Of a stretch of DNA of 45,996 nucleotides, positions 9,569 through 14,921 are shown piece after piece. The first letter of the stretch is position 1, and each line of letters starts with the position of its first letter. The position numbers and the translations under genes are program-made. The notes beneath the pieces were generated by a model, which ran no database searches, was not told the DNA's origin, and worked only from the letters and a program-made list of their open reading frames with translations. This stretch comes from Thermoflexus hugenholtzii JAD2 (GTDB lineage Bacteria > Chloroflexota > Limnocylindria > Limnocylindrales > Limnocylindraceae). Location: assembly GCA_945862225.1 (NCBI GenBank), contig CAMAXG010000003.1, forward strand, positions 1 to 45,996, written 5' to 3'.

Positions 9569-10504
9569 ATGAAGAAGACTCAGCGCACCCCTTGGCTTGT
9601 GGCCGCAGCTCTGGTTGCCCTGATCGTTGGCTCTGCTGCCGCACCACGAACGTTTGGCTGGGGTGCCGGGCTGGTCGCTGCGGCCGACGAAGAGCCAATC
9701 GACGGGGACCCGATCACCGACGAAAGCGCCGATCCCGATGAGAGAACGTCGCCAGACGAGAGCCTCGATCCCGATGCTTCCGCACCTGCCGAGGAGGAGC
9801 CAGAGCCTGACCCGGGGCAAGATCCGGGAGAGGAGATTACCCCTGACGCCACGGACGGCGAAGGTGGCGAAGACGGCGATGTCGAAGTATCTCCAAGTGA
9901 TGAGCCAGCTACGCCAACTCCACCAGAGCTCACACTCGGCGATCTGCTCGCCGCCGCCACTGCCAGCACACCCTTTGATGCCGATCTCGCGCTGCAGATC
10001 CTGCAGGACTATGCGCCACCGGGCGCACGTGCAATTGAAGTCGCTGATCGACAAACCTTCCGCAACGCACGTACCTACACGATCCGCGAAGTGCGTAGCT
10101 GGTCGCGACTTCCGCAACTCGGCACGTCGAGCGCAACGGTATGGATGCGGTTCGTTGGCGGATCAGAGCGAACGCCGTTCGCCGTTGCCGCTGGACGCGA
10201 CCGTAGCGATCCGCGAATTAGCAGTGTGCGTGTTCGCGAAGGGCGAGCATCGCGCGGGAACCCAGCGCCATATCTTCTGAAAATCGCCGGAAGCGATACG
10301 GGCACCGGCACCGTTGCCATTGAGGTACGGGTTGGCTACGAGAAGCCGCTCAGGTTCGCCGCTGGCGATGAGATTGAGATCGGCCCCTTCATGAAGACTA
10401 CGGGCGGGAAGGTGATCTTGTTGATGCGTGGCGTCACCGTTGAGGTGCGCTTGATTGATGCAGCTGGGAACGAGAGTTCCTGGCGCCGCGTGCGCCTCCC
10501 CTAG
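9569..10504 (+). CDS. Acidic secreted or membrane-anchored protein of unknown function
   Basis: 311 residues. A basic start (MKKTQRTPW) and hydrophobic stretch (about residues 9-26) form a signal peptide or anchor. Residues 40-120 are a low-complexity, very acidic linker of Asp, Glu, Pro and Ser. From about residue 165 a beta-rich region follows, ending in KVILLMRGVTVEVRLIDAAGNESSWRRVRLP, which resembles the last strands of an immunoglobulin-like or Big-type domain. No catalytic motif is seen. CACACT, a weak -10, ends six bases before the ATG. The gene abuts the convergent MFS gene with no spacer. Likely extracytoplasmic; function unknown. Confidence 0.7.
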   Translation: MKKTQRTPWLVAAALVALIVGSAAAPRTFGWGAGLVAAADEEPIDGDPITDESADPDERTSPDESLDPDASAPAEEEPEPDPGQDPGEEITPDATDGEGGEDGDVEVSPSDEPATPTPPELTLGDLLAAATASTPFDADLALQILQDYAPPGARAIEVADRQTFRNARTYTIREVRSWSRLPQLGTSSATVWMRFVGGSERTPFAVAAGRDRSDPRISSVRVREGRASRGNPAPYLLKIAGSDTGTGTVAIEVRVGYEKPLRFAAGDEIEIGPFMKTTGGKVILLMRGVTVEVRLIDAAGNESSWRRVRLP

Positions 10505-14129: not shown

Positions 14130-14921
14130 ATGTTGCCGCCAACCAAGCCCACGTCCCGCACTCCGCGTGAGCGCATGCCGTTTCGACATATTGGCTCAAC
14201 GATCCTGCTTGCTACCTCGTTCATCCTCGCTGCGGGCGCGCTCGTCACGTGGGGGATCGATCAGCAGATCGGACCCTGGGCCCCAGACGGAGTTGTGGTC
14301 GTCACTGAGGAGCCGTCAACCGGCCCAAGCGGCTCCCCCACTCCAGAGGCCGACCCATCAGACCCTTCAGAGCGCTCGCGCACCACGCCGCCACCCCTCC
14401 CGCCCGTGGATCCAAGCCTGCTCGTTCCCTCGATCGCCGGTGACCCTGTTCGCGTCTTGGTGAGTGGCGTCTGGATCAACCTCCCGGTCGTTCGCCCACC
14501 ACTTGAGGGCGATGGAGCGCCTCGATTCCCCTGGTGTCGTGTTGCCGAGTGGATGCCAAGTAAGGGGAGGGCCGACGGTAAGACGGGCATCCTCTTTATC
14601 TATGCACACAGCCGCTACTGGGAATTCGGCGGTCTTCTCGACAAAACGCCAAAGCAGATGCTTGGTCAGATCATTGAGGTTGATGTTCTGCCAAAGGAAA
14701 CTGGCCAGAAGCTGCTCCGCCTTCGCTACCGCGTGACCGAAGTGCGACAGCACATCACCTCATGGGCTGACATTAGTGATGTGCCAAAGGGTCGCGTCGT
14801 CTTGCAAACCTCTGAAACTGATCGTAGTGATGGAACAAAAATGGTCGTCATTGGAAAGTACGTAGATACAACAGTCTCCACCCGGCCGATGCCGGTAGCA
14901 ACGCCGCAGATCTGCGAATAG
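14130..14921 (+). CDS. Sortase-fold protein with altered catalytic residues
   Basis: 263 residues: an N-terminal membrane anchor (about residues 21-43), a Pro/Ser/Thr linker, then a sortase-like domain from about residue 105. GILFIYAHSRYWEFGGLLDKTPKQMLGQIIEVDV corresponds to the sortase His strand and the following F..L..L..G..I.V pattern (His160). The strand that normally carries TLxTC reads VVLQTSET, placing Ser228 at the nucleophile position, and the catalytic Arg is replaced by Lys237 in TKMVVIG. It is therefore probably not a normal transpeptidase; a scaffold, a processing protein or a changed enzyme are possible. No LPxTG protein is seen in the window. The start follows a leaderless promoter. 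Confidence 0.7.
   Translation: MLPPTKPTSRTPRERMPFRHIGSTILLATSFILAAGALVTWGIDQQIGPWAPDGVVVVTEEPSTGPSGSPTPEADPSDPSERSRTTPPPLPPVDPSLLVPSIAGDPVRVLVSGVWINLPVVRPPLEGDGAPRFPWCRVAEWMPSKGRADGKTGILFIYAHSRYWEFGGLLDKTPKQMLGQIIEVDVLPKETGQKLLRLRYRVTEVRQHITSWADISDVPKGRVVLQTSETDRSDGTKMVVIGKYVDTTVSTRPMPVATPQICE

Follow-up and report, generated by a model that had tools for sequence, protein, structure and literature searches.

Results

Gene and protein at the locus

The window (the whole stretch of DNA analysed here, 45,996 nucleotides long) contains on its forward strand, at 14130..14921, an open reading frame encoding a serine-type sortase-like protein of 263 amino acids. The host genome (G000) comprises 1.1 Mb, is 90% complete and has its nearest named relatives in Candidatus Aquidulcis (class Candidatus Limnocylindria, Chloroflexota). 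The gene is neighboured by genes for an S58 peptidase and a SpoU methylase, both of which are kept where the sortase gene is missing, and no convincing conserved operon partner was found among its neighbours. In another genome (G108), the sortase and SpoU genes are separated by a gene for an SGNH-domain acyltransferase (L205:5994-7979), which the window lacks. Elsewhere in the window (9569-10504), there is a gene for a secreted protein of 311 amino acids, rich in Pro, Glu and Asp and without a Pfam match.

The protein consists of an N-terminal membrane anchor, a linker and a C-terminal domain of about 160 amino acids. The anchor corresponds to residues 21-39 (14190..14246; this and the following features all lie on the forward strand), where hydropathy reaches a peak of 2.06 in a region invariant among orthologues. 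By hydropathy it is the only hydrophobic segment, as the initial annotation had proposed, and the protein accordingly has the single anchor expected of a sortase. The linker (approximately residues 60-101, 14307..14432) is of low complexity, rich in Pro, Ser and Thr, and represents the sole region of indels among orthologues.

The equivalent of the sortase catalytic His is His160 (14607..14609), found in the context YAHSR and invariant both in A1, our order-wide alignment (30 rows, sharing 29-89% identity with the window protein), and in A4, the alignment and profile of the sister LTLQTST group. The position of the catalytic Cys is occupied by Ser228 (14811..14813, codon TCT) within VLQTSE, likewise invariant in A1 and A4, and Lys237 (14838..14840), nearly invariant in A1, aligns exactly with the catalytic Arg. 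The nine residues separating Ser228 from Lys237 equal the spacing between Cys and Arg in Chloroflexota Cys sortases (TLITCYPYRVDTHR) as well as that between Ser and Arg in sister Ser enzymes (TLQTSTGPNREDPR). The retained His and the two replacements, Cys to Ser and Arg to Lys, had been read from the single sequence, and all three hold in the alignments. Further residues invariant in A1 include Glu229 and three that the initial annotation did not mention: Arg162 (14613..14615) of an (A/G)HxR motif, where some sister enzymes have Gln or another residue, Cys136 (14535..14537), present in 30 of 30 rows and absent in the sister TLQTST group, and Cys262 near the C-terminus (14913..14915). We infer that the two cysteines are possible disulfide partners.

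Relationship to sortases

Compared with Pfam on its own, the window protein gives no match, the sortase family PF04203 included, and a PF04203 search of its genome found nothing. Its relatives are more informative: PF04203 recognises 20 of 30 family members at E<=1 (best 5.6e-9), and a match above the cut-off is present in 110 of the 177 genomes of the class. When the A4 profile was compared with the PDB, 8gmx was matched at E 3.7e-7, together with 31 more entries at E<=0.1. In this alignment Ser stands opposite the Cys of solved sortases and Arg opposite Arg. Profile-profile comparison connects the window family to A4 with a probability of 99.8%. The proposal that a sortase-related protein is encoded at this locus is thus borne out by sequence profiles, and at the sequence level the homology of the window family to sortases is established. 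No relatives were found among viral contigs.

AF2 models, computed from nine input sequences, were poor for the full protein (pLDDT 42.5) and the domain alone (43.3), and we left them out of any consideration of active-site geometry. Because of their quality, neither the sortase beta-barrel nor a common pocket for His160, Ser228 and Lys237 could be demonstrated from them. In a Foldseek search with the low-confidence domain model, the top 50 PDB matches were all sortases, but weak ones (E>=0.011, TM about 0.35).

Conservation and origin of the serine

Eight orthologues, 77-92% identical to the window protein and originating from independent metagenome-assembled genomes from lakes and reservoirs, all keep Ser, His and Lys. 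The initial annotation had asked whether Ser is fixed among orthologues, and evidently it is; since these genomes are independent, a read error or a local mutation is excluded as the source of Ser228. Pairwise dN/dS values against the orthologues (0.06-0.12) rule out a pseudogene, and the window gene is under strong purifying selection.

The profile derived from A1 finds matches in 146 of the 177 Limnocylindria genomes. In the loci fetched, the subfamily of the window displays LQTSE...K, families f3 and f4 as well as a second subgroup of f2 display LTLQTST...R, and f5 displays LTLQTSQ...E, i.e. Glu at the position of Arg. Of 113 distinct sequences compared at the nucleophile site across the class, 109 carry Ser and the remaining four Cys. 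Each of the six codons for Ser (TCN and AGY) is in use, so it is the amino acid and not one codon family that is kept.

Some of these loci have unusual architectures. Some Ser sortases (L021, L028, L029) possess an additional, unidentified N-terminal domain with a conserved Cys pattern of its own. In G107, a single reading frame (L198:8012-9577) contains two Ser-sortase domains in tandem and is followed by a gene for a surface protein of LPxTA type, weakly similar to SpaA, and then by another Ser-sortase gene. In several f4, f5 and f2 genomes (L189-L191, L193-L195, L202, L203), a Ser-sortase gene is found near genes whose large products have 11-12 hydrophobic segments and resemble NADH dehydrogenase subunits by appearance alone.

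Outside the class, all 59 PF04203 loci sampled from Chloroflexota have Cys. In two maximum-likelihood trees, every Ser enzyme falls into one clade, and two Cys enzymes with the motif LTLQTC (L101 and L317) are sister to it. Owing to this sister position, a single Cys-to-Ser change fits the data; support for the deepest forks is moderate (94/78). One Cys enzyme, L127 of G015, is nested within the Ser clade beside Ser enzymes, and as far as sequences and trees can tell, its Cys is a probable reversion. The Ser of its tree neighbour in G016 is encoded by AGT, a single base from TGT. The genes of this pair (L231:4965-5621 in G015, Cys; L226:1718-2446 in G016, Ser) each adjoin a near-identical gene for an LPRTD substrate.

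Another group of Cys paralogues, with the motif SMTLQTC (L298-L316), is found in genomes of f2, within the same order, in some of them together with Ser enzymes. Wholesale abandonment of Cys sortases in the class is ruled out by genomes of this kind.

Sorting signals accompanying the serine enzymes

Profile searches of the window's genome revealed six proteins with C-terminal LPxT[N/S] followed by a hydrophobic stretch and basic residues, a count that may be incomplete; PF00746 alone was too noisy for listing substrates. Two are encoded on contig C23 (LPETNREG and LPETNRDE), three in tandem on contig C6 (LPETNREG, LPSTNRDG and LPETSRDG) and one on contig C13 (LPSTNGNS). The three in the C6 cluster, which lies at a contig end (L294, 26.5-31.9 kb), are large surface proteins, DUF5050-like and bearing LPxT[N/S]R tags. 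The window gene is the only sortase-like match in this genome in searches with PF04203 and the A1 profile, and no exosortase (PF09721) was matched at E<=1.

Within the genus, a signal profile built from genomes possessing the gene finds matches in 7 of the 10 gene-bearing genomes and in none of the 9 others (Fisher p 0.003, or 0.011 with the weakest left out; not corrected for kinship). Weak PF00746 matches in the gene-lacking genomes contained no LPxT motif in those that were read. In seven of the nine, the SpoU and S58 genes directly adjoin, leaving an intact empty site, and so the absence is true there and no assembly gap. As the nine gene-lacking genomes probably form one sublineage, the co-occurrence is nearer to one event than to nineteen and is partly phylogenetic.

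In the LTLQTSTSY sister subgroup, a substrate gene directly adjoins the sortase gene in all ten loci examined, its product being a secreted protein whose C-terminal signal (LPSTS, LPNTS, LPRTS or LPRTD) precedes a hydrophobic stretch and a tail of basic residues. Next to the Cys enzyme gene of G015 there is a gene of the substrate family that also accompanies these Ser enzymes (LPRTD). Within the subfamily of the window, a signal-protein gene adjoins the Ser-sortase gene in G059, and in G107 one such gene lies between two Ser-sortase genes and another beside a third. LPST[AS]T signals are also present in f4 genomes whose only PF04203 sortase is of the Ser type. Such matching of anchor tags and enzymes in the same genomes suggests that the serine enzymes still work.

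Discussion

Sortases have been described as using a His-Cys-Arg triad (PMC5148588), and all of them are stated to have this triad or an essential active cysteine (PMC13257024, PMC8416519). We found no report of serine sortases in the literature searched, which mostly did not cover subscription journals. Compared with the sortases of PF04203 and MEROPS C60 (classes A-F), the window protein has the N-terminal anchor, the strand order as inferred from sequence, the conserved His, a T[C/S] motif behind a strand with a basic residue nine positions on, and secreted partners with LPxTx, a hydrophobic stretch and a basic tail. It qualifies as a C60 sortase by homology, His, single anchor and cognate signal proteins in its genome. 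It does not qualify by the catalytic Cys of TLxTC, for which all orthologues and family members, and essentially the whole Limnocylindria clade, have Ser, nor by the catalytic Arg, which is Lys in the subfamily of the window, whereas the sister TLQTST groups have kept it. Further differences are the tag, LPxT[N/S]R[D/E]G versus LPxTG, and the lack of a PF04203 score in the window protein. The nearest Cys relatives found are TLQTC sortases of the same class (L101, L317, L298-L316); L101 and L317 share LTLQT with the Ser enzymes, but all of them keep Cys, and in some genomes they coexist with Ser enzymes.

Rhombosortase and exosortase/archaeosortase systems process such tags (GlyGly-CTERM and PEP-CTERM) by means of multi-pass membrane proteins with unrelated folds, and rhombosortase is a rhomboid-type serine enzyme. 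With its one hydrophobic segment, the window protein differs from the multi-pass rhombosortase.

The initial annotation left undecided whether the protein is a pseudo-sortase or a serine-based variant. Conservation of His and Ser within a single clade, sorting signals, co-loss and gene adjacency favour the latter: the protein is best regarded as a sortase variant of the serine type, very probably sortase-like in action, its catalysis being inferred. More specifically, we assign a probability of roughly 0.72 to the window protein being an active, membrane-anchored serine-type sortase, again with nucleophile chemistry inferred in the absence of biochemical data.

The following course of reaction can be envisaged. 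A secreted precursor would be held in the membrane via its hydrophobic tail, and the sortase domain would most likely bind the C-terminal LPxT[N/S]-R-[D/E]-G signal in front of the hydrophobic stretch and basic tail. With His160 presumably as its activator and Lys237 helping in place of Arg, Ser228 would then attack the Thr carbonyl. Cleavage of the Thr-Asn bond would yield an acyl-ester instead of a thioester intermediate, to be resolved by a cell-surface amine acceptor, so far unidentified, which would thereby receive the protein. The roles of His and Lys, the geometry, the point of cleavage, the transfer and the acceptor are all inferred. The Glu found at the Arg position in the f5 sister family counts against this reading.

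Ser228 may act as a nucleophile, and yet the enzyme might mainly hydrolyse the signal, so that surface proteins would be released and not attached to the wall. An acyl-ester is generally shorter-lived in water than the thioester of sortases, and no acceptor has been identified; gene adjacency and co-loss are compatible with both joining and release. The tandem clusters of large tagged surface proteins (L294), on the other hand, fit display better than release, and we regard predominant hydrolysis as unlikely.

It might also be supposed that no reaction takes place at all, and that the fold merely binds LPxT signals or holds substrates as a catalytically dead scaffold or regulator. Two members of the classical triad, Cys and Arg, are altered in the window protein, and Cys-to-Ser changes usually inactivate Cys enzymes; in studied sortases, too, they usually abolish activity. 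A dead protein, however, does not readily account for His and Ser being kept class-wide at about 30% identity, nor for the retention of Arg in the TLQTST groups. Moreover, the window protein is the sole sortase found in a genome where six sorting signals need an enzyme, and in one subgroup the Cys version shares its gene context with Ser versions, which suggests that the chemistry is interchangeable. Loss of catalysis is therefore not favoured, and we judge it quite improbable. Relocation of the nucleophile, for instance to Cys136, with Ser228 being structural, is very improbable despite the invariance of Cys136 and Cys262 in the order-wide family, as neither is conserved in sister Ser groups, where Ser is invariant, and two invariant extracytoplasmic cysteines suit a disulfide.

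Returning to the active serine-type sortase, the same reading can be extended, with somewhat less confidence but still as the probable course of events, to a class-wide radiation: Cys would have changed to Ser once near the base of a Limnocylindria sortase clade, the descendants would act through an acyl-ester on LPxT[N/S/D/A], and one lineage would have reverted to Cys in the same context.

Ser sortases are carried by freshwater and soil Chloroflexota, throughout the whole class Limnocylindria, and a search that insists on TLxTC overlooks the sortases of this entire bacterial class. The Ser enzyme of G016 and the Cys enzyme of G015 constitute a natural swap pair with near-identical substrates, in which tolerance of the nucleophile change can be studied. 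Enzymes of this type could serve as ligation tools unaffected by oxidation or by thiol-directed sortase inhibitors. If our reading is true, the natural occurrence of a lineage of Ser enzymes together with substrates that match them would mean that sortase chemistry needs no thiol.
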